64,000 bases of DNA from Sipunculus nudus. Lineage: Eukaryota > Annelida > Sipuncula > Golfingiida > Sipunculidae. Position 1 is the first letter of the stretch; every line of letters begins with the position of its first letter. The stretch is taken from assembly GCA_026874595.1 (NCBI GenBank), contig CM049306.1:80688142-80752141 (forward strand), written 5' to 3'. Under the pieces are notes generated by a model. It made no database searches and was not told where the DNA came from. It saw only the letters and a list, made by a program, of their open reading frames with translations. Shown one piece after another: positions 6,451 through 63,714 of the stretch. Made by a program: the position numbers and the translations under genes.

Positions 6451-7419
6451 CCTAGCAGGATAGTGATTTTTTTAATGAAACTTATCAGAAATTTTGCCAA
6501 TATAAAGGCTCGCCTAAATTTGATTCCTGGCGAAATCCGCAAATTCAATGAGGTGAGAGGTTACCAGCCTACTTTAGTGAGTCAATTTGTTATGTTAAAT
6601 ACATAAATATATCGCGTACCTTATATTTATCAATTTAATACACTTGGGTACTATGGGCATACTAATGCTACAGTAGCACTCCATTATGACTTTTTATTAT
6701 TGTTATTATTACTAATTCACTTGATATACATGTGCCTTGTTTAATCTTGATGACCAGGTTCAGATTGATGAATTTATATAAAAGATCCAACAATCCTTTT
6801 TCCTTATGGTATTACATCAAGCTTTTTATTCTCACACAGTCACTGTCTTGTAACGTTCTTTGTCAGCATAACCTACAAATATGTTGGTATCACTTATCAG
6901 GGGTAAAATGTTTTGAAGGCTTGATTGAAGCATAAACTTTTTAAAAATCTAATTGATTAGGAGGGGCTGGGTAATGGCCTATACTGCCTCCCAGATAACC
7001 AACATTTTCTTGACACATTTATATCAATTACACAAATTTATGTATGTGTGCGTGTCATAGAATGTGAATGAATGAATGAATGGATAGAAGTTTATTCTGA
7101 AATAAAAGGCCTCAGGCCCATGGTTCTACAAAGAGCATATGGTTTACGTGTTGGAGGTTATATTAGAGAATCAAACATTGGTATAATTTTGAAGAAATCA
7201 ATGCCGTTCAGATTTAAATACTTGTATTCTAATCGTAATGATTAACATTGTCGTCTCATATGATAGTGAGACATGATTTTCTGGATTTGATATCCTATCA
7301 TAGGATATATAGAAATCAATATTTTACACTTTACCGGTAGGATTTTAAATTAAAGCGGCTGTTTATCTATTTCTAAACACAACTGTTTTTTCTTAACAAT
7401 ATGTTTTTTTTCTTCCCAG

Positions 7420-8266: not shown

Positions 8267-9762
8267 AAATATAATATTTCCGATTATATTTTTCCCACAG
8301 GAAGCTATATTTTTAGAACTTATCATATCCATGATTGTGTATTGTTGTATTGGTAGTGATGTAGTTTAAAGTTGTACATTGATTATAGTCGCTCTATTTG
8401 TATGCTGTGCGGTACGTTTTGTATCCGGTATAAGTAAATAAGCTTAACATTTTTTGTGCATGGTAAATTAGCCACCAGTCATGGAAATTATTTTAAATTA
8501 CATTAATGTTTTCCAACGGTCGTTTGCACTTTACCCTTTTCTTCCTGCTCATTATGTAATTTCTTTTGAACTTACAATGATCATGATGATGTAACTTTAA
8601 TCTTTAATAAGCTTTAATGCAATTAAACTTTTCACGTTAAATAATCGCGTGCAATCTTGCGTAGCATTTAAGAGGAGGAGAAATAACTTAAAGTAAACTT
8701 ACACAAGTGCTCTTGTTGCAGATCAACATAATTCGTAGTTGGTTACCCAGCACAATAGTAATAATAACAGTATAAAAACGACTTTGTTGCCACATCGCCT
8801 TCACCCATCAAAGGAAACGTAGCTTTAACAAATACCTATTGAAGTAATATCCTGTCAACTCTACTGGTTTGCATATCAGCTGCTTACTATATTTCAAAAC
8901 CCCGCACACTTACGCAGGTTCAGCTTGCTGAAAGCCATTGTGTGTAGGTGTTTAGCCTCACCCATTCACTTGCACTGGTCCACTATGTTTTCCGTAATTA
9001 TTTCCTGAATGGAATTTAGAGTTATTATGAACGTCACTGAAAGCGGCTTTTTTTTGCACAAACGTTCTGAGATATAAGTGGTATCTGTGAAACGTGATGA
9101 TTCTCCAAAATATTTTATACTGTTACAGTAAGATGCAAGTCAAAGTTATCTGTTTGTCCCAACCGTATTACATGTAGTCAATTTTAGATTACGTATGGGA
9201 AATCACTCATTCCTTCATAAGCAAACACTCCTCAGTTAGAAGTGCCATAATTGGTAAATTAACAACAAACAAAGACAATCAAAATCGTTCAAATACATCT
9301 TAAAGTTAGATTATAAATTAAGAAAACTTGGAAAAAAATATCCGAAGGAGCCAGTACCGTAATAAATACGATATAGAGTTGCAATATAAAGTTAAGAATT
9401 ATTAAATGTCCAATGCCCGAAAATTTAACCCAAATTTACAATAAATGTAATATGTAACTTAATATTTGACCCTTGTATGTAGCCCTCGCCGTCCTTTCCT
9501 CGAGTAAACATACTATAGGTAGTAGAGGAAAACTAGTTGATTGTATAATTTCCATAAAATTCCAGTAATTTCCAAAAGCTCACCATATCAGTTAAACCTT
9601 TCAAATTTGTTCATCGCAACCAGCAATTAGAAGGTAATAGGTTCGATACAGGGAACCGACTTTTCTGCGAATGCATGGCTCATTTCTATATACAATGAAC
9701 AAGCTTAGCTATTCATACATCTCTCTCTCTCTCTCTCTCACACTCTCTCTCTCCATATACAA

Positions 9763-23129: not shown

Positions 23130-23404
23130 ATGAATACTTGCTGACAATTATGTGCGCATCTACCAGGTTCCCTGAGAGGCAATACCATTGCGCAAAATTA
23201 ATAATAAAAGTGTTTTCAAACCTCTGACCAAGTTTTTAACAACTTTTGGATTACCAAAATCTGTCCAGTCTGACCAAGGGTCTAATCTTCTGCTGGCTTA
23301 TTCCAACTAGTTATGCTTGAGCTAGGTATAATTCAGTACAGCTTTTCGCCATACCATCCTGAAAGTCGGGGCGCACTCGAGCGTTTTCACCAGACATTAA
23401 AAAC

Positions 23405-24520
23405 ATGATCAGAACGTATTGCTATGGCACACAGAAAGACTGGGAGGAAGGAATCCACCTATTGCTGTTTGCTGTCAGAGAATCTTTTCAAGAGTCCTTG
23501 GGTTTCAGTCCCCTGGAACCAGTTTTTGGACACACCGTTCGAGGTCCATCGAAGCTGCTTAAAGAAAAACTTTTGTGTGAAAATCCTGATTTTCTTAGTT
23601 TACTGCAGTATGTCTCAGACTTTCGCACTAAACTACACAATGCTTGTGAGATTGCAAAGTCAAATCTAAAATCTGCACAAAGTAACATGAAAACAAAGTA
23701 TGACAAGCACAATGTAAGTAGGACGTTTGAGCCTGGTGAAAAGGTCCTTGCCTTACTTCCCACCCCTAGCAGACCTCTGCAAGCTAGGTATTTTGGTCCT
23801 TACATTGTTGACAAGAAAGTCAGTGATTTAAATTACATACTGTTGACACCAGATAGACGTACATGTAAGAAGAAACAACTGTGCCATGTAAACATGTTGA
23901 AACCATATTATGACAGAAATAGCACATTAGATGTTGTACACAATGTTACTGCTGTTAATTGTGTAAACACTGACCCTGACCCAGTTAAAGTAGATACTGA
24001 TTGTAAGTGTGATGTTGACATTCAGTGTGGTACAGTACCATTAAAAAACGCAGACGTGCTTAAAAACCTGGGTGCCAAACTGTCACCCCTAACCTCACAA
24101 GATCAACAAGACCTCAAAAACCTGCTGCGGAATTATGAACATTTGTTTAGTGACATTCCAACGCGAACTAACATGTTGTGCCATGACGTCGATGTCGACG
24201 AGGCAAGCGCAGTTAAGTTACATCCATATAGACTGAATCCAAAAAAGCAAAAGGATCTACAGGATGAGTTTCAATATTTGCTGGACAATGATTTTATTAA
24301 ACATAGTAACAGTAACTGGAGTTCACCATGTATTCTTGTGCCAAAACCTGATGGAAGTTACCGTATGTACACAGATTATCGAAAACTGAACTCTGTCACC
24401 ATGACTGACACGTTCCCGATTCCGAGGATCGATGATTGTATTGATAGAGTCGGTAGCTCCAGATATGTCTCCAAGTTTGACTTGCTAAAAGGATTCTGGC
24501 AAGTTCCGCTGACAGAATGA
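23405..24520 (+). pseudogene. Integrase C-terminus fused to RT N-terminus (371-codon open frame)
   Basis: One uninterrupted frame holds, in order, the end of an integrase core, a GPY/F-type module (RYFGPYIVDKKVSDLNYILL, about residues 127-146) ending HVNMLKPYYD, a linker, and the first RT blocks. The latter include SSPCILVPKPDGSYRMYTDY and VSKFDLLKGFWQVPL (about residues 308-370). This shows directly that integrase precedes RT in one polyprotein. A TGA codon ends the frame just after the FDLLKGFWQ block. The true protein began upstream, where IN-core sequence (FGLPKSVQSDQGSN) is visible around 23240-23285. Confidence 0.85.
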
Positions 24521-25446
24521 GCGAAAGAATTGTCCGCATTTGTGACGCCGCAAGGACTGTACCAGTAAAAAGCTATGCCGTTTGGCATGAAGAACTTGTC
24601 AGCCACGTTCCAGCGCCTCATCCATATGATTGTCAAGGACATTCAGGGCTGCGACGCATATATTGATGACGTTATCGTGTACAGCGACACCTTGGGGAAA
24701 CTCCGATCTCTTCGAAAGACTCAGTGAAGCACGTCTGACCATCAACTTAGTAAAATCTGAGTTTTTTCCTGCACAATTTTTGGGTCATATTGTAGGGCAG
24801 GGTCAGGTAAAACCTGTTTATGCTAAGATAAGTGCTATTTCTGCATTTCCTAGACCAGAAAACAAAAAACAAATAATGCGTTTTCTTGACATGGTTGGAT
24901 ACTACAGGAAGTTTTGTCCAAATTTTGCTGCTGTAGCTGAACCTTTGACTAATTTGTTAAAGAAGAAAACAAAAGTTTGTATGGAATGTTCAGTGTGAAA
25001 ATGCATTCCAGAATTTGAAAGCAATTCTGCAAAGTTCACCAATTTTAGCAGCTACAGACTTCTGTACCTTTTAAGTAAGCTGTGGATTCTAGTGATACTG
25101 CTGCTGGTGCTGTGTTGTTAAAGGAAGGCAATGATGGCATAGATCATCCAATGTGTTATTCCTCAAGAAAGTTTAATGCAAACCAGAAGAAAACTACTCC
25201 ACTATTGAAAATTAATGTTTGGCTTTGCTTTTGGCGTTGCAACATTTTGAAGTTTATGTCACTTCATCAGTCAGGACTATCATTGTCTTCAGTTATCACA
25301 ATCCCCTCACGTTCATGAACAAGTTGAAGTGTAAAAATCAAAGATTGTTGAGATGGAGTTTGTTCTTACAGGATTACAATCTTGATATCATACACATTAA
25401 AGGGAAAGACAATGTACTTGCTGATTGCTTATCGAGATGTTTATGA
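24521..25446 (+). pseudogene. RT catalytic and RNase H remnant
   Basis: After the in-frame TGA the same protein continues in pieces. TAA follows GLYQ near 24566. YIDDV, the RT active-site motif, lies at 24659-24673. After a frameshift, LGHIVGQGQVKP and MRFLDMVGYYRKFCPNFA mark the RT thumb. From 25082 the RNase H begins (DSSDTAAGAVLLKEG); it changes frame near 25220 and ends with HIKGKDNVLADCLSR before TGA at 25444-25446. Stops and frameshifts show the copy is inactive. Confidence 0.82.
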
Positions 25447-36192: not shown

Positions 36193-36247
<55 letters not shown>

Positions 36248-36388
36248 GTCTCTCTCTCACACAGGGATTTCACAAGCTGAGGTCATACGGTGATCATTAT
36301 GTGATATCACTCTGATCGCTCTCTGTCTCTCACACAGGGATATCACATGCTGAGGTCACACGGTGATCATTATGTGATATCACTCTGA

Positions 36389-36419
<31 letters not shown>

Positions 36420-36497
36420 GTCTCTCTCTCACACAGGGATTTCACATGCTGAGGTCACACGGTGATCATTAAGTGATATCACTCTGATCTCTCTCTC

Positions 36498-36540
<43 letters not shown>

Positions 36541-36665
36541 GGGATTTCACATGTTGAGGTCATACGGTGATCATTATGTGATATCACTATGATCCGTCTC
36601 TCCCTCTCACACACAGGGATTTCACATGCTGAGGTCACACGGTGATCATTATGTGATATCACTCT

Positions 36666-36714
<49 letters not shown>

Positions 36715-36930
36715 GGGATTTCACATGCTGAGGTCACACGTTGATCATTATGTGATGTCATTGTGATCCCTCTCTCTCTCACACACAGGGAAATCACATG
36801 CTGAGGTCACACGGTGATCATTATTTGATATCACGCTGATTCCCCCCCCCGCTCACAGAGATATCACATATTGAGGTCACAGGTGATCATTATGTGATAT
36901 CACTGTGATCCCTCTCTCTCTCTCTCTCAC
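36130..36930 (+). repeat. Satellite array of about nine units with CT microsatellites
   Basis: The core CACAGGGATTTCACATGCTG, then AGGTCACACGGTGATCATTA and TGTGATATCACTCTGATC, is followed by (CT)n of varying length. Units are about 60-120 bp depending on the CT run. The core holds two palindromes, TGATCA and GTGATATCAC. The array is the reverse complement of the family at 33713-34060. Confidence 0.9.
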
Positions 36931-41299: not shown

Positions 41300-42405
41300 T
41301 TCTAAACATCTCGATAAGCAATCAACAAATACATTGTCTCTCCCTTTAATGTACCTGATTTCAAGATTTTAATCCATCTAAAAAATCTTTGGTTTTTACA
41401 CTTAACTTTTTCATGAGGGGTTTGTGATCACTGAAGACAATGATAGGTTTGACTGATGAAGAAACATAAACTTCAAAATGTCGCAGTGCCAAAATCAAAG
41501 AAAACTTTTTTTTTCAATAGTGGAGTAGTTTGTCTGGTTTGCATTAAACTTTCTTGAAAAACAACAAATTGGATGATCTATGTCATCACTGCATTCTTTT
41601 AACAACACAGCACCAGCAGCAGTATCACTTGCAAATACAGCTCACTGATAGGGTACAAAAAAGTCTGGAGCTGCTAAAACTGGAGAACTTTGCCGAATTG
41701 CTTTTAAATTTTGAAATGCATTTTCACACTGAACATTCAATACAGACTTTTGTTTCTTTTTTAACAAATTAGTCAAAGGTTCAGCTACAGCAGAAAAATT
41801 TGAACAAAACTTCCTGTGGTATCCAAACATACCAAGAAAACGCATTATTTGCTTATTGTTTTCTGGTCTAGTAAATGGAGAAATAGCACTTATTTTAGCA
41901 TCAACAGGTTTTACTTGACCCTGCCCTACAATATGACCCAACAATGTTACTTGTGCATGAAAAAGTCAGATTTGACTAAGTTGACGATCAGACATGAGTC
42001 TTTCGAAGGGGTCGCGAAAAATTAGCAGATGTTTCTCCCAGGTGTCGCTGTACATGATGAGGTCATCAATATATGCGTCGCGCCCTGAATGTCCTTGACA
42101 ACCATATGGATGAGGCGCTGGTACCTGGCTGGCGAGTTCTTTATGCCAAACGGCATAACTTGATACTGGTACAGTCCTTGCAGCGTCACGAATACGTACA
42201 CTTCTTTCGCTCGTTCTGTCAGCGGAACTTGCCAAAATTCTTTTAGCAAGTCAAACTTGGAGAACGGGAACGTGTCAGTCTTGGTGACAGAGTTCAGTTT
42301 TCGATAATCTGTGCACATACAGTAACTTCTATTAGGTTTAGGCACAATAATACATGGTGAACTCCAGTTACTGTTACCAGGTCCAATAAAATCATTGTCG
42401 AGCAA
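41300..42405 (-). pseudogene. RT and RNase H remnant
   Basis: From 42405 down to 42022: SSPCIIVPKPNRSYCMCTDY, FSKFDLLKEFWQVPLTERAK and LYQYQVMPFGIKNSPARYQR. A deletion has removed the stretch between the SVTKTDTFP and FSKFD blocks that the other copy retains. YIDDLIMYSDTWE occurs in the neighbouring frame near 42070. From 41944: LGHIVGQGQVKPVDAKISA and MRFLGMFGYHRKFCSNFSAV. RNase H residues (DTAAGAVLLKE, KGRDNV-DCLSR) continue to about 41300 across frame breaks. Confidence 0.78.
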
Positions 42406-42446
42406 ATACTGAACCTTATCTTGTAGATACTTTTGCTTTACTGGAT

Positions 42447-42785
42447 TCAGTCTATGGGGATGCTGTTTGACTGCGCTCGCCTTGCCAACATCGACGTCAT
42501 TGCATAATATATTAGTTTGCGTTGGAATGTCAACAAATGTCCATATTTCTGCAGCAGGTACTTGAGGTCTGGTTGTGGCAGTGCGGTGAGGTGTGACAGT
42601 TTGGCATCCAGGTTGTTAAGCACGATTGAGTTTTTTAGTGGTAGTGTTCCACACTGAATGTCTGCAGCACACTTACGATCAGTATCTACTTTTACTAGGC
42701 CAGGGTCAGTTTTTACACAATTAACAGGAGTATTATTATGTACAAGATCTGATGTGCTATTTCTGTCATGATATGGTTTCAACAT
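42447..42785 (-). pseudogene. Integrase-RT linker
   Basis: The reading starts MLKPYHDRNST and contains CVKTDPGLVKVDTDRKC and LPLKNSIVLNNL. It corresponds closely to the linker between the GPY/F module and RT in the 371-codon frame at 23405-24520. Its frame breaks before RT, in contrast to that copy. Confidence 0.75.
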
Positions 42786-43213
42786 GTGAACATGGCACAG
42801 TTGTTTTTTTCTTACGCCTATCTGGTGTTGACAGTATGTAATTTAAATCACTGACTTTCTTGTCAACAATGTAAGGACCAAATACCTAGCTTGCAGAGAT
42901 CTGCCAGGGATGGGTAGTAAGGCAAGGACCTTTTCACCAGGCTCAAACGATCTACCTACAGTGTGCTTGTCATACTTTGTTTTCATTTTACTTTGTGCAG
43001 ATTTAGATTAGAGTTTGCAATCTCACAAGTATTTTGTAGTTTAATGCAAAAGTATGAGACATACTGCAATAAACTAAAAGAGATCTGGATTTTCACACAA
43101 GAATGTTTCTTTAAGCAGTTTTAATGGACCTCCAACTGAGTGTCCAATAAACTAGTTCAAAGGGACTGAAACCCAAGTATTTAAAAGGATTCTCTGACAG
43201 CAAACAGCAATAG

Positions 43214-43928
43214 TTAGATTCCTTCATCCCAGTCTTTCTGTGTGTCATACCAATAGGTCCCAATCATGTTTTTTAATGTCTGATGAAAACGCTCGAGGGC
43301 GACCTGACTTTCAGGATGGTATGGCGAAGAGCTGTACTTTTTTATACCTAGCTCAAGTATAACTTGCTGGAATAAGCCAGACATAAAATTAGACCCTTCA
43401 GACTGGTACGGTTTTGGTAATCCAAACATTGTTAAAACTTAGTCAGAGCCTTAACAACATTACTGGCATTAATTTTGCGCAAGGGTATTGCCTCAGGAAA
43501 CCTCGTAGATGCGCACATAATTGTCAGCAAGTATTCATGTTCAGATTTTGTTTTGGAACTAAACGGTTCCTTGAAAACAGGAATAGGCCTAAGTGTGGCT
43601 TTCCTACCATTTGGCATGTGTGGCATGATTTACAATATTGTACAACATCAGTCCTGGGGTTAGGCCAATAGAAGTGTGTACTAACTTTCTGATAAGTTTT
43701 ATTTATACCTAAATGACCAGACAAAGGAGCCTCATGTGCCATGCTTAGAATTTCATTGCGATAGCTTTTGGGCACAACTATTTGATGTTTGATGGCCCAC
43801 TCATCATCAGCGCATACATCAGGTGGTCGCCATAAACGCATAAGCACTCCATTTTTAACATAGAAACAACATTTAAAGGGGGTTCTGTGACAGTTCGTCT
43901 TTAGAAAATGCTCCTGGGAAACAAACAT
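43214..43928 (-). pseudogene. Integrase zinc-finger and core remnant
   Basis: From 43928: the H2C2 zinc finger is visible as H-EAPLSGHLGINKTY...CKSCHTCQM. The core follows in other frames: MCASTRFPEAIPLRKINASN (43626-43432) and GLPKPYQSEGSNF with YSSSPYHPESQVALERFHQT (43429-43214). The expected Asp of the QSDxGSNF block reads Glu here (QSEGSNF), and frames are split, so the enzyme is not functional. Confidence 0.78.
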
Positions 43929-44099
43929 GAAAAATCAGGGTCCTAATGCTGTTCCGCGATAAGTTCTGACCTTGAAAATGCTGCATCATGTCCGGATGAG
44001 TAGTTAGACTAGTCACTAGTGACTCCCAGAGTGTTATTACCTGGACCATAATCCTCATGTGCGTTTTCTTGACCATAGATCTAGGTACAGCATATGAAG

Positions 44100-46694: not shown

Positions 46695-46895
46695 ATGGAC
46701 GCAGAGGAATTCCGCAAACGAGGCAAAGAGATGGTGGATTATGTTGCTGACTACCTGGAGAACATCAGGGATCACCGAGTACTTCCGGCCGTTCAGCCGG
46801 GATACTTACCCAGAATGATCCCTGACCACGCCCCGGAAGTACCCGAGCGCTGGGAGGATCTGATGGCGGACTTTGAAAGGGTTATCATGCCGGGG
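46695..46895 (+). CDS. DDC: DDC exon 1 (first coding exon)
   Basis: ATG follows GAAGAAAA and opens MDAEEFRKRGKEMVDYVADY, the standard N-terminus of animal DDC. The exon ends at ...FERVIMPG before GTACGT, phase 0. A TTTTTTTTTCTAG acceptor at about 46662 shows that the exon starts with about 32 bases of 5'UTR and that transcription begins further upstream. The family's usual start fits this ATG, and no in-frame earlier one adds conserved sequence. Confidence 0.92.
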
Positions 46896-47432: not shown

Positions 47433-47545
47433 ATCACTCACTAAAAGCAGCCTCACTTTCACGCCCACTTTCTGGCACTACCGTCTTATCCCGCCATATG
47501 GCGGACCTGCTCTCCGAGTCTATCAGCTGTGTCGGCTTTACCTGG
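47433..47545 (+). pseudogene. Decayed duplicate of DDC exon 2
   Basis: After a good polypyrimidine acceptor (TTTCTTCCCCCTCCTCTGAAG) the reading follows exon 2 residue by residue: I-T-H, a stop in place of Trp, then FHAHF, SYPAI. A 1-base deletion after the ATA codon shifts the frame, after which ADLLSESISCVGFTW and a GT follow. Length is 113 against 114 for exon 2. The stop and the deletion make it unusable, while the splice borders still look intact. Confidence 0.85.
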
Positions 47546-47896
47546 GTATAAAGCACCTCTCATCACATCAGAATATTTATTATTAATATGACAAAATATG
47601 GTCATACTGCCAGTCTTTGGGAAAACGTTTCACAAATGATACGGAGAGTTGCTGCCTTCGCCTTAATTGATCCAAGTCCTTGTATTACGTTGGGAACAAA
47701 ACTACTAATTTAGTGACTTGCCTGAAATCCATGGGGTGGGGTCCACACTCTAGGCCCATTCTTTCTGGATACCCTTTACTGTTTTCGGATTCCCGTAACA
47801 CCTTCCGTTTTACCTCAACTCTATCCGGATAACCTCAACTCCTTCCGGATAACTGCATTCTGCATACATCACACATATTCATGTTTTTAATTCCAG

Positions 47897-48010
47897 GTGA
47901 CTCACTGGTTTAGCCCGCAGTTTCACGCCTACTTTCCGATAGCTAACTCGTATCCAGCCATCTGTGCCGACATACTGTCTGAAGCCATTGGTTGTATGGG
48001 GTTCTCATGG
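47897..48010 (+). CDS. DDC: DDC exon 2
   Basis: Acceptor TTTTTAATTCCAG, donor GTAAGA, phase 0 at both sides, 114 bases. The reading [20 protein letters not shown] followed by [18 protein letters not shown] is the conserved block after MPG in group II decarboxylases and includes the substrate-pocket region (HAYFP). Confidence 0.93.
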
Positions 48011-49500: not shown

Positions 49501-50281
49501 TTAATTGTTGATATTTTTGCGTACTGGTTGATACATGTCTGTGCGTTTAATTATGTTGCTTTATGAAGTGAGGTCATACAGGTCAGTAAGACAAAGAAGG
49601 TGGAGTTAAACAGGCCAGTGAGACAAAGGAGGTGGAGTAATACAGATCAGTGAGACAAAGGAGGTGGAGTCATACAGGGCAGGATTAGACAAAGGAGGTG
49701 GGGTTAATCAGGTAGGTAAGATGAAGGCGGTGAGGTCATACAGGTCAGTTAGACAAAGGAGGCTGAGTTAAACAGGTCATCGAGAGAAAGGAGGTGGAGT
49801 CATACAGGTCAGTGAGACAAAGGAGGTGGAGTCATACAGGTCAGTGAGACAAAAGGAGGTGGAGTGCGACAAAGGATATGGAGTCATACAGGTCAGTGAG
49901 ACAAAGGAGGTGGAGTCATACAGGTCAGTAAGACAAAGGAGGTGGAGTCATACAGGTCAGTGACACTAAGGAGTTGGGGTCATTTGGTCACTGTGTCATA
50001 CGAGATGGAACCATACAGGTCAGTGAGACAAAGAAAGGGGAGCTATACAGGTCAATGTAACAAAGGAGGAGCCATAGAGGTCATTGAGACAAAGGTGGAG
50101 GAAGCATACAGGTCATTAAGGGAAAGGGGGTGGAGTCATACAGGTCAGTTAGATAATGGAGGTTCAGCCATACAGGTCAGTGAGACAAAGTTGGTTGAGT
50201 TATACAGGTCAGTAAGACAAATTATATCATGTGTAACATATACTCAGTCGATTGTGTTTAATGATATATCTCTAAACATAG

Positions 50282-50395
50282 ATGGCCAACCCGGCGTGTA
50301 CTGAACTCGAGGTTGTGATGAAAGACTGGCTCGGCAAGATGTTAAATCTACCGCACGACTTCTTGTCGGGAGGCAAAAGAGGTGTAGTCATACAG
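50282..50395 (+). CDS. DDC: DDC exon 3, copy A
   Basis: Acceptor ATCTCTAAACATAG, donor GTCAGTAAG, 114 bases, phase 0 both sides. It reads [20 protein letters not shown] and ends GGKRGVVIQ. Two changes from the family pattern stand out: Met-Met-Asp-Trp is Met-Lys-Asp-Trp, and the Gly-Gly-Gly-Val-Ile-Gln loop is Arg-Gly-Val-Val-Ile-Gln. This copy may be the least able to give an active enzyme. The internal Met is not a start; it replaces the usual Ala after Trp. Confidence 0.75.
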
Positions 50396-51367
50396 GTCAG
50401 TAAGCCAAAGGAGGTGGAGCCATACAGGTCAGTGAGACAAAGGGTGCGGAGTCATACAGGTCAGTGAGACAAAGGAGGTAGAATCATTCAGGTCAGTGAG
50501 ACAAAGGAAGCGGATTCAATTAGATCATTGAGACAAAGGAGGTGGATTCATACAGGTCAGTGAGACAAAGGAGGGGGAGCCATACAGTTTAGTATTAGAC
50601 AAAGGGGGTGGAGTTAAACAGGTTAGTAAGATGAAAGAGGTGGGGTCATACAGGTAAGCATTGGACAAAGGAGGTGGAGTTAAACAGGTAAGTAAGATAA
50701 AGGAGGTTAGGTCATACAGATCAGTATGACAAAGAAGGTGGAGTTATACAGGTCAGTGAGACAACGGAGGTGGAGTCAAACAGGTCAGTAAGACAAAGGA
50801 GGTGGAGTTAAACAGGCCAGGGAGACAAAGAAGGTGGAGTAATACAGATCAGTGAGACAAAGGAGGTGGAGTCATACAGGTCAGTATAAGACAAAGGGGG
50901 TGGGGTTAATCAGTTTGGTAAGATAAAGGAGGTGAGGTCATACAGGTCAGTTAGACAAAGGAGGTTGAGTTAAAAAGGTCATTGAGAGAAAGCAGGTGGA
51001 GTCATACAGGTCAGTGAGACAAAGGAGGTGGAGTCATACAGGTCAGTGAGACTAAGGAGTTGGGGTCATTTGGTCACTGTGTCATACGAGATGGAATCAT
51101 ACAGGTCAGTGAGACAAAGAAGGTGGAGCTATACAGGTCAATGTAACAAAGGAGGAGCCATAGAGGTCATTGAGACAAAGGTTGAGGAAGCATTCAGGTC
51201 ATTAAGGGAAAGGGGGTGGAGTCATACAGGTCAGTTAGATAATGGAGGTTCAGCCATACAGGTCAGTGAGACAAAGTTGGTTGAGTTATACAGGTCAGTG
51301 AGACAAATTATATCATGTGTAACATATACTCAGTCGCTTGTGTTTAATGATATATCTCTAAACGTAG

Positions 51368-51481
51368 ATGGCCAACCCGGCGTGTACTGAACTCGAGGTT
51401 GTGATGATGGACTGGCTCGGCAAGATGTTAAATCTACCGCACGACTTCTTGTCGGGAGGCAAAGGAGGTGGAGTCATACAG
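51368..51481 (+). CDS. DDC: DDC exon 3, copy B (best match to family)
   Basis: The same borders as copy A (acceptor ...AAACGTAG, donor GTCAGTAAG), open throughout. It reads [20 protein letters not shown] and ends GGKGGGVIQ, keeping [15 protein letters not shown] and the GGGVIQ loop, so it is the most likely exon used in the main transcript. Inclusion of any one copy keeps the frame. Inclusion of all three would also keep it but insert 76 extra residues. Confidence 0.85.
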
Positions 51482-52423
51482 GTCAGTAAGCCAAAGGAGG
51501 TGGAGCCATACAGGTCAGTGAGACAAAGGAGGTAGATTCATACAGATCAGTGAGACAAAGGAGGTAGAATCATTCAGGTCAGTGAGACAAAGGAAGCGGA
51601 TTCAATTAGATCATTGAGACAAAGGAGGTGGATTCATACAGATCAGTGAGACAAAGGAGTGGGAGTCATACAGTTCAGTATTAGACAAAGGGGGTGGAGT
51701 TAAACAGGTAAGTAAGATAAAGGAGGTGGAGTCATACAGGTAAGCATTGGACAAAGGAGGTGGAGTTAAACAGATAAGTAAGATATAAAGGAGGTTAGGT
51801 CATACAGGTCAGTAAGACAAAGAAGGTGGAGTTATACAGGTCAGTCAGACAACGGAGGTGGAGTCAAACAGGTCAGTAAGACAAAGGAGGTGGAGTTAAA
51901 CAGGCCAGTGAGACAAAGGAGGTGGAGTAATACAGATCAGTAAGACAAAGGAGGTGGAGTCATACAGGTCATTATTAGACAAAGGAGGTGGGGTTAATCA
52001 GGTAGGTAAGATAAAGGAGGTGAGTTCATACAGGTCAGTTAGACAAAGAAGGTTGAGTTAAACAGGTCATTGAGAGAAAGGAGGTGGAGTCATACAGGTC
52101 AGTGAGACTAAGGAGTTGGGGTCATTTGGTCACTGTGTCATACGACATGGAATCATACAGGTCAGTGAGACAAAGAAAGGGGAGCTATACAGTTCAATGT
52201 AACAAAGGAGGAGCCATAGAGGTCATTTAGACAAAGGTGGAGGAAGCATACAGGTCATTAAGGGAAAGGGGGTGGAGTCATACATGTCAGTTAGATAATG
52301 GAGGTTCAGCCATACAGGTCAGTGAGACAAAGTTGGTTGAGTTATACAGGTCAGTGAGACAAATTATATCATGTGTAACATATACTCAGTCGCTTGTGTT
52401 TAATGATATATCTCTAAACGTAG

Positions 52424-52537
52424 ATGGCCAATTCGGCGTGTACTGAACTCGAGGTTGTGATGATGGACTGGCTCGGCAAGATGTTAAATCTACCGCACGA
52501 CTTCTTGTCGGGAGGCAAAGGAGGTGGAGTCATACAG
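52424..52537 (+). CDS. DDC: DDC exon 3, copy C
   Basis: Open 114-base exon with the same acceptor and donor as copy B. The only coding change noted is Pro to Ser in PACTELE ([10 protein letters not shown]); the GGGVIQ loop is intact. It lies 1056 bases after copy B. Confidence 0.78.
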
Positions 52538-53529
52538 GTCAGTAAGCCAAAGGAGGTGGAGCCATACAGGTCAGTGAGACAAAGGGTGCGGAGTCATACA
52601 GGTCAGTGAGACAAAGGAGGTAGAATCATTCAGGTCAGTGAGACAAAGGAAGCCGATTCATACAGACCACTGTGTCATAGGAGAAGGAATCAAACAGGTC
52701 AGTGAGAGAAATTTGGTGGATGGAGTCGTACAGGTTAATGAGACAAATGAGGAGGAGTAGTACAGGTCAGTGAGACAAAGGAGATGGGGTCATACAGGTA
52801 AGTATTGGACAACGGAAGTGGAATTAAACAGGTAAGTAAGATAAAGGAGGTGGGTTCATACAGGTGAGTATTGGACAATTAAGGTGGAGTTAAACAGGTA
52901 AGTAAGATAAAGGCGGTTAGGTCGTACAGGTCAGTAAGACAAAGAAGGTGGGTTCATACAGGTAAGCATTGGAAAAAGGAGGTGGGGTTAAACAGGTTGG
53001 TATGATAAAGGAGGTGAAGTCATACAGGTCAGTTAGTCAAAGGAGGTGGAGTTAAACAGGTCATTGAGAGAAAGGAGGTAGAATCATTCAGGTCAGTGAG
53101 ACAAAGGAAGCGGATTCATACAGATCAATGTGTCATAGGAGGTGGAGTCATACAGATAAGTTAGATAAAGGAGGTGAGGTCATACAGGTCAGTAAGGCAA
53201 AGAAGGTGGAGTTAAACAGGTCAGTGAGACAAAGGAGGTAGAGTCATACAGATCATTGAGACAAAGGAGGTAGATTCATACAGGTCAGTGAGACAAAGGA
53301 GGGGGAGTCATACAGGTCAGTATTAGACAAAGGAGGTGCAGTTGAACAGGTAAGTAAGATAAAGGAGGTGGGGTCATACTGGTAAGCATTGGACAAAGGA
53401 GGTGAAGTTAAACAGGTAAGTAAGATAAAGAAAGTGAGGTCATACAGGTCAGTAAGAGAAAGAAGGTGGAGTTAAACAGGTCAGTGAGACAAAGGAGGTG
53501 GAGTAAAACAGATAAGTAAGAGAAAGGAG

Positions 53530-54090
53530 TTGGAGCTATACAGGTCAATGTAACAAAGGAGGAGTCATAGAGGTCATTGAGACAAAGTTGCAGGAAGCAT
53601 TCAGGTCACTAAGGGAAAGAGGGTGGAGTCATACAGGTCAGTAAGACAAAGGAGGTGGAGTCATACAGGTCAGTAAGAGAAAGGAGGTGGAGTCATTCAG
53701 GTCAGTGAGACAAAGAAGGTTGAGCTATACAGGTCAATGTAACAAAGGAGGAGTCAGAGAGATCATTGAGACAAAGTTGCAGGAAGCATACAGGTCACTA
53801 AGGGAAAGGGGGTGGAGTCATACAGGTCAGTAAGAGAAAAGAGATGGAGTCATACATGTCAGTGAGACAAAGAAGGTTGAGCTATATAGGTCAATGTAAC
53901 AAAGGGAAGTCATAGAGGTCATTGAGACAAAGTTGCAGGAAGTATACAGGTCACTAAGGGAAAGGGGGTGGAGTCATACAGGTCAATTAGATAATGGAGG
54001 TTCAGCCATACAGGTCAGTGAGACAAAGTTGGTGGAGTCATACAGGTCAGTGAGACAAATTACGTGGAGTCATACAGGTTGGAGAGACAA
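53530..54090 (+). repeat. Higher-order repeats of the minisatellite without exon 3
   Basis: GCTATACAGGTCAATGTAAC and the following GGTCATTGAGACAAAG-TGCAGGAAGC recur at about 53535, 53724 and 53881. They match the segment that precedes each exon 3 copy. The last one continues to GATAATGGAGGTTCAGCCAT and CAGACAAATTA-type sequence, but then goes straight into GTGGAGTCATACAG, where the other blocks have the intron end and exon 3. It looks like a fourth block that lost its exon. Confidence 0.7.
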
Positions 54091-54646
54091 AGGTTGTGGA
54101 ATTGGCCACGAGGGCTGTTGCGCGAAGCAGGCGCCAATTGGGAATAAATGTAAGCCGGGCCGTGTAGATTGGATGGGCGAATTAGGACCTTACAGACCAG
54201 AAGTGGGTGTGACAAAGTATTGCTTTACAGTCTAGATGGGCAAATTATGAACATACAGGTTATAGTGAGGCAAGTAATTTGTAAAATCTGGAATTTAAAC
54301 GGAATTTTAATGAGCATTGAAAGTAAACTTTGATCAAAATTCTCTGTGATTCTCTGTGATGTCTCAGATGAAGGGACAGGTACAAAATATATATTGAAAA
54401 TGTATATTGTTGCTGGTTGGTTATCATTATTATTGAGTAGGTGAATAAATAAGCAATAACCCTAGAAATCGCCTTCATCTATAAACGCTGTGATTTATGA
54501 CGGGGTTAAATGTTCTGTATTTTTTCTTCTAAATGACTTAAATATACTTAACTTTTAGAACTGCACATCCATGAAGGATCTTCAAGAAATAATTGTTTTC
54601 ATGAATGTTTTCCCAAACGATTCCTTACTGTACCAAACCTTCAAAG

Positions 54647-54781
54647 GGAACAGCTAGTGAAGTTATACTTGTAACCATGCTGGGCGCCAGAAACCGGGTG
54701 CTGCGCGAGAATCGGGAAGAACTCAGGACGAAAGAAGACTCAGAAATCATGGGGAAGCTGGTAGCCTACTGCTCTGACCAG
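54647..54781 (+). CDS. DDC: DDC exon 4
   Basis: Acceptor ACCTTCAAAG, donor GTACGT, 135 bases, phase 0. It reads GTASEVILVTMLGARNRVLR at the start and ends MGKLVAYCSDQ. The GTASE segment continues the loop from exon 3 (GGGVIQ-GTASE), a conserved substrate-binding stretch. Confidence 0.92.
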
Positions 54782-55039: not shown

Positions 55040-55690
55040 TATGCTCTATATGCATAGCCTCACAGCTGACAGTCTAATGCTCTGACAACATTACCGCACA
55101 GTTGGCAGTCTAATGCTCAGACAACTTAACCGTACAGCTTGCGGTCTAATGCTCAGACAACATAACAGTACATCTGGTGGTCTAATGATCTAAGTACATA
55201 TCATTACAACTGGTTATCTTATGCTCTGACGACATAACCTTATATCTGGCGGTCTAATGATCTGACGACATAATCTTACAGCTGGCTGTGTAATGCTCTT
55301 ATGACATAACCGTACAGCTGGAGGTATATTGCTCAGACGACATAACCGTATATCTTGGGATCTAATGCTCTGACGTCAAAACCGTTCAGGAAGAGGTCTA
55401 ATGCTCTTATAGCCTTACATTTTGAGGGTTTATGCTCTGACGACATTATCTTACAGCTGGCGGTCTAACGCTCTTATGACATAATCTTACAGCTGGCGGT
55501 CTAATGCTCTTATGACATAACCGTGCAGCTGGAGGTATATTGCTCAGACGACATAACCGTACATCTTGACGTCTAATGCTCTGACGTCAAAACCGTTCAG
55601 GAAGGGGTCTAACGCTCTTATGGCATAACCGTTCAGCTGAGGTCTAATGCTTTGACGACATAACCTTAGAACAGATAGTCTAATGCTCCG
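55040..55690 (+). repeat. 36-bp minisatellite in intron 4
   Basis: TCTAATGCTCTGACGACATA, then ACCGTACAGCTGGCGG, repeats at 36-base spacing (55075, 55111, 55147, 55183, 55219 and on), about 18 diverged units. The core CTAATGCTCTGAC resembles CTACTGCTCTGACCAG at the end of exon 4. A short ATT/TTA run follows (about 55740-55770). Confidence 0.85.
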
Positions 55691-55791: not shown

Positions 55792-55935
55792 GCACACTCG
55801 TCAGTAGAACGAGCTGGTCTATTGGCGGCGATGAAAATCCATAAAGTTGAGAGCGATGAGAAATGCTGTATGCGAGGGGATGCTCTGGCTGACGCCATTA
55901 ACCAGGACAAACAACGAGGACTTGTACCATTTTAT
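55792..55935 (+). CDS. DDC: DDC exon 5
   Basis: Acceptor GGTTAATTATCTGTAG, donor GTAGGA, 144 bases, phase 0. It reads AHSSVERAGLLAAMKIHKVE to QRGLVPFY. The His at position 2 (about residue 190) is the base-stacking active-site histidine. In insect aldehyde-synthase relatives it is Asn, so this favours a true decarboxylase. Confidence 0.93.
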
Positions 55936-56455: not shown

Positions 56456-56522
56456 GCGGTTGCCACATTAGGTACCACGCCGTCCTGTGCCTTTGACAAG
56501 CTTAAAGAGATAGGACCTGTGT
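56456..56522 (+). CDS. DDC: DDC exon 6
   Basis: Acceptor TTTCTGTTCTGCAG, donor GTAAGT, 67 bases, phase 0 in and phase 1 out. It reads AVATLGTTPSCAFDKLKEIG then PV; the remaining T joins GT of the next exon to make Cys. ATLGTT contains the threonine that contacts PLP in the family. Confidence 0.92.
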
Positions 56523-57246: not shown

Positions 57247-57341
57247 GTAATAGAGAAAATGTATGGCTTCATATAGACGCCGCCTATGCCGGGTCTGCCT
57301 TCATATGTCCCGAGTTTAGACCGCTGCTTGATGGTGTGGAG
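57247..57341 (+). CDS. DDC: DDC exon 7
   Basis: Acceptor TTTTTCTTTCAG, donor GTATTC (weaker), 95 bases, phase 1 in and 0 out. After the split Cys it reads [20 protein letters not shown] and [11 protein letters not shown]. The Asp of DAAYAG pairs with the PLP ring nitrogen. Confidence 0.94.
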
Positions 57342-57807: not shown

Positions 57808-57875
57808 CTTGCAGATTCTTTCAACTTTAACGCTCACAAATGGATGCTGGTAAACTTTGATTGCTCGGCCATGTG
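57808..57875 (+). CDS. DDC: DDC exon 8 with PLP lysine
   Basis: Acceptor TTTTGCTTACAG, donor GTAAGT, 68 bases, phase 0 in and 2 out. It reads [20 protein letters not shown] and AM; TG then joins G of exon 9 to make Trp. Lys of HKW (about residue 301) forms the Schiff base with PLP. The usual Pro before His (NPHKW) is Ala here, a mild change. Confidence 0.93.
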
Positions 57876-58478: not shown

Positions 58479-58569
58479 GGTTAAAGACTCCTCTCAGATT
58501 GTGGATGCCTTCAATGTAGACCCGCTGTATTTAAAACATGATTACCAGGACCAAGCCCCAGACTTCAGG
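58479..58569 (+). CDS. DDC: DDC exon 9 with catalytic loop
   Basis: Acceptor AACTTTCACAG, donor GTAAGC, 91 bases, phase 2 in and 0 out. After the split Trp it reads VKDSSQIVDAFNVDPLYLKH and DYQDQAPDFR. Tyr of LYLKH (about residue 330) is the loop tyrosine needed for decarboxylation; Phe here would suggest an aldehyde synthase. Confidence 0.93.
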
Positions 58570-62766: not shown

Positions 62767-62865
62767 CACTGGCAGATACCGCTCGGGGGACGGTTCCGTT
62801 CACTTAAACTCTGGTTTGTTCTCCGTCTGTACGGAGTTCAGGGAATACAAATGCATATCAGAAAG
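62767..62865 (+). CDS. DDC: DDC exon 10
   Basis: Acceptor CCATTTATTCCAG, donor GTAATA, 99 bases, phase 0. It reads [20 protein letters not shown] and [13 protein letters not shown]. The family usually has LGRRF; here one Arg is Gly (LGGRF). RSLK-WFV is strongly conserved. Confidence 0.92.
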
Positions 62866-63612: not shown

Positions 63613-63714
63613 CAAATTGCGCTGGCGAAAAAATTTGAAGCCCTAGTAAAGGCAGACGACAAGTTTGAGGTCACAAATGACGTCATCATGGGATTAGTCT
63701 GCTTCAAATTAAAG
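63613..63714 (+). CDS. DDC: DDC exon 11
   Basis: Acceptor GTATTTCTTTTAG, donor GTTGGT, 102 bases, phase 0. It reads QIALAKKFEALVKADDKFEV and TNDVIMGLVCFKLK. GLVCF-LK is the conserved strand before the C-terminal GSN segment. Confidence 0.9.

Follow-up and report, generated by a model that had tools for sequence, protein, structure and literature searches.

An aromatic-L-amino-acid decarboxylase (AADC) gene of Sipunculus nudus carries, between exon 2 and exon 4, a large minisatellite whose 32-bp unit is a copy of the gene's own exon 3 donor junction. The gene lies on the + strand of a 64,000-nt stretch (the window; G000:C1:80688142-80752141) within a 1.43-Gb assembly. It is highly probable that the array belongs to the kind known in lancelets as 'mirages': a donor-junction minisatellite that was seeded in an ancestral AADC gene, reached five or more paralogs and, in the window gene, came to repeat a block carrying exon 3, with no dedicated function and with one exon 3 copy in use. 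The anatomy of the array, its presence in paralogs, the higher-order repeat and a second junction-derived array in the same gene are established.

Wrap-around decomposition places the array at positions 49565-54100. The unit, CAAAGGAGGTGGAGTCATACAG|GTCAGTGAGA, consists of the final 22 nt of exon 3 and the initial 10 nt of intron 3, and its in-register alignment with the exon 3 junction scores 113, whereas none of 7716 control windows exceeds 27. This bears out the proposal of an earlier note on this DNA that the unit joins the exon 3 end (codons for GGGVIQ) to its intron donor. Tandem Repeats Finder, the type of program that the note had proposed for unit consensus and copy number, returns a 32-bp unit consensus, 132.6 copies over 49863-54100, and a row overlapping this one begins at 49573; clean units stop near 54100, short of the end first given at 54275. 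A 24-mer spanning the junction (18 nt of exon and 6 nt of intron) has 67 matches in the window at no more than three mismatches, versus 0.00 expected from shuffles. Decomposition yields 143 rows, 128 of which share at least 20 of the unit's 32 bases; subtraction of three genuine exon 3 ends and two chance rows in exon bodies leaves 123 array units. Mean identity of the window units to their local consensus is 85.9% (exon-end rows counted).

Donor signals are widely retained. The count of well over 100 donor-like sites offered previously is an overstatement: a bare GT is kept in 100 of the 123 units, but CAG|GT in only 87. CAG|GTCAGT stands in 55/123 units, and the perfect U1 match CAG|GTAAGT, which many units were said to carry, is present but limited to 10 of the 123. 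Matches to NAGGT[AC]AGT number 65 in the array region (exon ends counted), with three more elsewhere on the window's + strand and none on its - strand. The region 49565-54100 is also strand-biased, with 32% G and 12% C on the + strand, a GC skew of up to 0.47, and 8.8 two-tetrad G-quadruplex-like starts per kb versus 0.8 per kb in the window's first 45 kb; such bias could favour R-loops, which may help instability.

The array had been taken for a single block behind one exon. It is instead split by three full copies of exon 3 that were missed earlier, and its parts are as follows (C1a is a paralog described below).

49565..50226, + strand: leftmost block, within intron 2; about 20 array units, with no exon 3 copy ahead of them (decomposition; C1a comparison)
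50227..50281, 51313-51367 and 52369-52423, + strand: last 55 nt of ancestral intron 2, acceptor included, ahead of each exon 3 copy (C1a homology)
50282..50395, + strand: exon 3 copy 1, 114 nt, ag/gt intact; relative to copy 2, M>K and GGG>RGV
50396..51312, + strand: array block separating exon 3 copies 1 and 2 (Tandem Repeats Finder, decomposition)
51368..51481, + strand: exon 3 copy 2, canonical protein
51482..52368, + strand: array block separating exon 3 copies 2 and 3 (Tandem Repeats Finder, decomposition)
52424..52537, + strand: exon 3 copy 3, P>S in PACTELE
52538..54100, + strand: array block in intron 3, past the last exon 3 copy (Tandem Repeats Finder, decomposition)

Each exon 3 copy is 114 nt long and in phase 0, with acceptor and donor intact, and the copies are borne on a higher-order repeat of ~1.06-1.09 kb (offsets 1086, 1056 and 2142 bp). 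The extent of this repeat is defined by comparison with C1a, which lies 92 kb from the window gene, is the closest of four paralogs to it (exons 1-5 differ by 2.0 to 7.4%), and has a single exon 3 in a simpler arrangement. Intron 2 of C1a is homologous to that of the window gene in two blocks up to window position 49561, and then again from 50227, 51313 and 52369. Homology thus resumes 55 nt ahead of each exon 3 copy, and the repeated block therefore takes in 55 nt of intron 2 together with exon 3 and about 28 units. A 303-bp segment of C1a intron 2 (9111-9413) has no window counterpart, and the window's left array block stands in its place. The leftmost block either lost its exon 3 or never had one.

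A search of the whole assembly with the junction 24-mer, allowing two mismatches, gives at least 169 forward and at least 21 reverse matches, and a control pattern (the 24-mer read backwards) gives none in the 1.43 Gb. Among the 100 matches listed, five places are represented: the window and four other loci, all of which are AADC genes with exons from 1 on in order and with the array in intron 3. The five introns 3 together hold all 65 exact matches listed and 150 of the 169 forward matches. In all four other paralogs the array begins before exon 3 has ended, within its final 25-31 nt, as set out below with the array start and exon 3 end in locus coordinates, the number of units (exon end not counted), mean identity to each locus's own consensus (exon-end rows counted), donor retention, and the proportion of units whose nearest unit comes from the same locus, with its chance level.

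C1:80.64 Mb, paralog C1a: 9557/9582; 37 units; 86.4%; GT in 30/37, CAG|GT in 20/37; own-locus 0.23, chance 0.11
C5:89.23 Mb, paralog C5a: 8088/8112; 55 units; 88.9%; GT in 48/55, CAG|GT in 17/55; own-locus 0.69, chance 0.16
C5:90.08 Mb, paralog C5b: 10199/10229; 58 units; 97.7%; GT in 58/58, CAG|GT in 56/58; own-locus 0.89, chance 0.17
C5:90.37 Mb, paralog C5c: 8469/8494; 70 units; 81.6%; GT in 46/70, CAG|GT in 24/70; own-locus 0.28, chance 0.20

The corresponding own-locus value for the window is 0.86 against a chance level of 0.36; the test covered 352 rows, exon-end rows counted. Within-locus concerted evolution is accordingly found in all five loci, clear in three and weak in C1a and C5c. 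Because units exceed chance in resembling units of their own locus, the arrays appear separate in turnover, and one shared origin followed by separate turnover at each locus is the most likely history of the five. Higher-order structure differs among them: C5a has a period of 189 bp, C5b is almost uniform, and C1a and C5c have little or none. No second full exon 3 was found in any of the other four paralogs within the 20 kb examined, and no further AADC paralog in three additional 10-kb pieces, which carry the last exons of C1a and C5b. Past the end of its 32-bp array, intron 3 of C5b has an additional 37-bp tandem array (L014 2217-2397).

The next intron of the window gene holds a second junction-derived array.

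55062..55665, + strand: tandem array with a 36-bp unit, located in intron 4; the units are decayed copies of the junction at the exon 4 donor (26 nt of exon and 10 nt of intron)

Wrap-around alignment, which was used since a single-best-match junction search is too blunt for decayed arrays, gives window intron 4 a score of 216 against the 36-nt exon 4 junction unit, where shuffled units reach at most 26 (12 shuffles) or 56 (20 shuffles) and six other exon junctions at most 22. The intron 4 array is present in C1a (score 112, control maxima 40 and 28) and C5c (76, control maxima 44 and 32); no such array was detected in C5a (28 versus a control of 26) or C5b. Across 43 introns tested (window intron 2 up to 49560, C5a introns through 5, C1a introns through 8), a unit from the intron's own donor scores more than 1.5 times the control maximum in intron 3 of 5/5 genes, in intron 4 of 3/5, and in none of the 33 other introns; introns 7 (four loci) and 10 (three loci), retested with exact donor junctions, are negative in all seven cases. 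On the acceptor side, where intron 6 was run with the exon 7 start 1 base off, scores above the control maximum occur in window intron 2 (66 versus 58), window intron 4 (74 versus 54) and C5c intron 4 (64 versus 32). Runs of TTA/TAA stand ahead of window exon 5. It is very likely, from these alignments, that two donor junctions of one gene seeded arrays.

Both arrays bear on the direction of copying. The end of exon 3 encodes GGKGGGVIQ, a sequence also present in the AADC structure 3k40, which we take to be the Drosophila enzyme and which is the closest solved relative of the joined exons 3 and 4 (E 5.4e-20). Since this stretch is common to 3k40, the coding exon preceded the array, and since the intron 4 array likewise matches the exon 4 junction, the direction from exon to array is well supported. 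The splice junction is therefore the likely source, as had been proposed, given that 5/5 placed arrays lie in AADC intron 3, that the exon part of the unit is common to distant AADCs, and that the intron 4 array offers a parallel.

A sequence of events can be proposed on this basis, in which the mechanism of amplification, the order of events, the choice of splice site and neutrality are what we infer. In an ancestral AADC gene, the 32-bp stretch across the exon 3 donor junction (22 nt of exon, 10 nt of intron) would have been duplicated in tandem, and the array would have grown by slippage or unequal exchange. It would then have been carried into at least five paralogs, with separate turnover in each. 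In the window gene, a larger event may have repeated the block that starts 55 nt ahead of exon 3, in intron 2, and runs on through the exon and about 28 units, leaving three exon 3 copies within the array. The array most likely has no dedicated function and would be a neutral product of repeat turnover. The spliceosome would use the donor that adjoins an acceptor-bearing exon 3, whereas the use of decoys would lead to frameshift and to decay of the products; one exon 3 copy, probably copy 2, would make the enzyme.

The end of exon 3 is unusually uniform across the five paralogs. Variable sites number 32 among the first 90 of the exon and none among the last 24 (hypergeometric P 1.2e-4), and the corresponding third positions vary in 18 of 30 and in none of the 8 at the end (P 0.0026). 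When exons 1-5 are scanned in eight-codon windows (229 in all), the end of exon 3 is the single one with no variation at any site. If third positions alone are counted, windows 134-137 are also free of variation, as is a window in exon 1 (start codon 42), so that the exon-end signal is not unique by that measure. Exchange with the array would produce this pattern, and so would combined constraint from the protein and the splicing signal; the five loci were chosen through their arrays, and the comparison has no array-free paralog as a control. A tentative extension, which we hold to be possible but doubtful, is that the coding exon is in turn rewritten by the array in its intron, with exchange holding the final eight codons of exon 3 identical in the paralogs even at silent sites, and that the whole exon is now a copy-number-variable, in-frame cassette in the window gene. 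If so, a minisatellite born of a splice junction shapes the codons of its source gene, and donor junctions (introns 3 and 4) are recurrent seeds of arrays able to duplicate exons.

Several observations weigh against a neutral array of junction origin. If the satellite were found all over the genome, its origin in a splice junction would have to be reversed; 5/5 placed loci have it in AADC intron 3, but 40 of the 190 genome matches (19 forward, 21 reverse) have no assigned place and could be outside AADC genes. All five loci were found by way of the array, and the comparison thus contains no AADC paralog that lacks it. The donors raise a further difficulty. The real exon 3 donors pair with the 5′ end of U1 at -9.6 kcal/mol, and 28 of the 100 GT-bearing window units pair at least as well, 15 of them better, the best being CAG|GTAAGTAA at -13.7 kcal/mol. 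With so many array donors pairing with U1 as well or better, the silence of the decoys is not self-evident.

These donors are an argument for a regulated role, in which extension of exon 3 by whole units, or competition among donors, would tune AADC output in the manner of human IFI6, with decay of off-frame products. Such a role could also draw on the presence of arrays in five paralogs and on the human minisatellite cited as a source of used donors. The reading frame speaks against it: use of the donor in the next unit is a 32-nt step that shifts the frame, continued reading into the intron ends at a stop codon 69 nt behind copies 1 and 3 and 51 nt behind copy 2, and exon 4 contains stop codons in both other frames. 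Productive use of array donors in mature transcripts is thus unlikely on the sequence, as is the lengthening of exon 3 in 32-bp steps that had been envisaged. Moreover, CAG|GT is poorly kept in C5c (24/70), C1a (20/37) and C5a (17/55); the nearly complete set in C5b (56/58) says little, that array being young; and lancelet mirages are reported as not disturbing splicing. Overall, we regard regulated use as improbable and favour the reading in which the donor nearest an acceptor-bearing exon 3 would be used and decoy products would be degraded. Recursive splicing at a zero-length exon, for which the CAG|GT layout of the units had been considered, is rejected: the 15 bases ahead of CAG|GT in the consensus are GGAGGTGGAGTCATA, and the lack of a pyrimidine tract remarked on earlier is confirmed.

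The three exon 3 copies might instead be working alternative exons, chosen one at a time to give AADC variants. All three have intact ag/gt sites, a length of 114 nt and phase 0, two or three of them could by sequence be joined in frame with the addition of 38 residues each, and the family does duplicate exons, in that C5b has two intact copies of exon 2. The differences among the copies, though, are few in number, include some at conserved positions (GGG to RGV, PAC to SAC) and have much the same frequency as differences in the flanking array, which resembles relaxed drift; in each of the other four paralogs, the 20 kb examined hold at most one full exon 3. Between copies 1 and 2, 2 and 3, and 1 and 3, respectively, the counts of differing sites are 4, 2 and 6 out of 114 in the exons, 6, 8 and 6 out of 252 in the array ahead of each copy, 2, 0 and 2 out of 64 in the intron 2 end ahead of them, and 7/170, 6/106 and 0/106 in the array past each copy. 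As the divergence of the exon copies about equals that of the flanking array, the extra copies are without sign of constraint, and we consider their use as alternative exons distinctly improbable.

Divergence of about 2-5% falls within the range of heterozygosity of some animals. The blocks diverge to about this degree, and tandem arrays are difficult to assemble, so that haplotypes or repeat reads could have been misjoined to give a tripled exon block. Such an error is nevertheless very unlikely: there are three copies rather than two, with differing numbers of units between them (offsets 1086 and 1056), the left array block occupies the place of 303 bp of C1a intron 2, and the array recurs in four other genes of the same assembly. 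A reversed origin, with a satellite first landing next to exon 3 and then lending the exon its sequence, has nothing beyond shared sequence and the room left by the 40/190 unplaced matches to recommend it and is dismissed as exceedingly improbable, as the exon end is AADC protein sequence common to distant animals, every placed array adjoins exon 3 of an AADC gene, and the array in intron 4 corresponds to another junction, the one at the end of exon 4.

The window gene is, on sequence similarity, an AADC gene: its joined exons 1-11 span the entire Pyridoxal_deC domain (PF00282, 515 bits, profile positions 1-375/375, E 1.2e-154). The remaining exons are the following.

46695..46895, + strand: exon 1 (MDAEEF...VIMPG), donor GTACGT (tblastn and boundary inspection)
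47433..47545, + strand: exon 2a, a dead extra copy of exon 2 with a TAA stop at codon 4 and a frameshift (tblastn)
47897..48010, + strand: exon 2, 114 nt, phase 0 (tblastn and boundaries)
54647..54781, + strand: exon 4 (GTASEV...YCSDQ), donor CAG|GTACGT (tblastn and boundaries)
55792-55935, 56456-56522, 57247-57341, 57808-57875, 58479-58569, 62767-62865 and 63613-63714, + strand: exons 5-11 (tblastn, ag/gt boundaries, PF00282)

Exon 12 was not seen in the window by tblastn, and the gene continues past its end. Exon 2a is also dead in C1a (L009 about 6715-6827), sharing the TAA at codon 4 with the window, and is intact in C5b (L013 4888-5001; 114 nt, ag/gt sites), where it would fit an alternative exon pair. 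Shortly ahead of exon 2, three paralogs carry a 20-bp tandem repeat (CTCTTTCCGGATAACCTCA-like; 47812-47853, L009 7042-7197 and L015 7595-7825), possibly another exon-neighbouring minisatellite. At 36195-36924 there is a tandem array whose unit of about 71-75 bp contains a long CT run followed by CACACAG|GG, which resembles a splice acceptor, and this array also occurs upstream of C1a (L009 67-385). Candidate Gypsy-type retrotransposon pol fragments, judged from motifs in open frames, lie at 23363-24998 (+), 41642-42842 (-) and 43524-43934 (-). Searches at Rfam gathering scores and with ARAGORN detected no structured RNA or tRNA in the window.

The AADC family seems to display several stages of such arrays: decayed in intron 4, fresh in C5b (97.7%), aged in C5c (81.6%), and, in the window, with an exon carried off three times. 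It shows how junction arrays may begin and spread, and it is natural material for the study of donor choice by the spliceosome where about a hundred sites are alike.

With regard to known systems, the lancelet Adh mirage was reportedly first described by Canestro et al. in 2002, and the study of the multi-donor minisatellite of IFI6 is said to be that of Turri, Cuin and Porter in 1995. Tandem repeats across exon-intron boundaries are reported in the lancelet Adh3, globin (BflGb6/BflGb9), TnC and PGBD5 genes and are called 'mirages' for Adh3, globin and TnC; for the globin genes concerted evolution inside clusters is described, and no disturbance of splicing is reported (PMC3087553, PMC3902484). 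A model of intron gain is built on these repeats, in which junction-seeded repeats are a route to new introns and exons (PMC3087553). The human IFI6 (6-16) minisatellite is cited as providing multiple splice donors, and two downstream units are stated to be used (PMC4526556). The remark in the earlier note that it knew of no described minisatellite seeded by a splice junction within a conserved gene is thus not borne out, lancelet mirages and IFI6 having been described (PMC3087553, PMC3902484, PMC4526556). A search of one literature collection found no paper joining a minisatellite with exon duplication, concerted evolution, introns and gene conversion. The kind is already known, and the AADC case is a large, multi-paralog variant with exon capture.

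Like the lancelet mirages, the AADC repeat spans an exon-intron boundary of its host gene (the exon 3 end in five AADC genes, the exon 4 junction in 3/5), many of its units keep splice signals (GT in 100 of 123 window units), and, as in the globin case, evolution is concerted within clusters, clearly in three loci and weakly in two. Traits counted for the lancelet type also include length polymorphism and somatic instability; the AADC array is described from one assembly. Unlike the globin mirage, which has 3-6 units, the window array has 123 good units, and unlike the lancelet mirages in general, AADC has two neighbouring introns affected, the array in five paralogs, and a whole exon inside a higher-order repeat. 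As in IFI6, tandem units at an exon's donor offer several splice donors; unlike IFI6, with its two used downstream units, the use of donors in the AADC array would break the reading frame. The kringle IV repeat of LPA is a coding-exon variable number tandem repeat whose unit holds a complete exon with its splice sites. The AADC higher-order repeat likewise holds a complete exon with splice sites, but here exon 3 sits inside a minisatellite built from its own splice junction.

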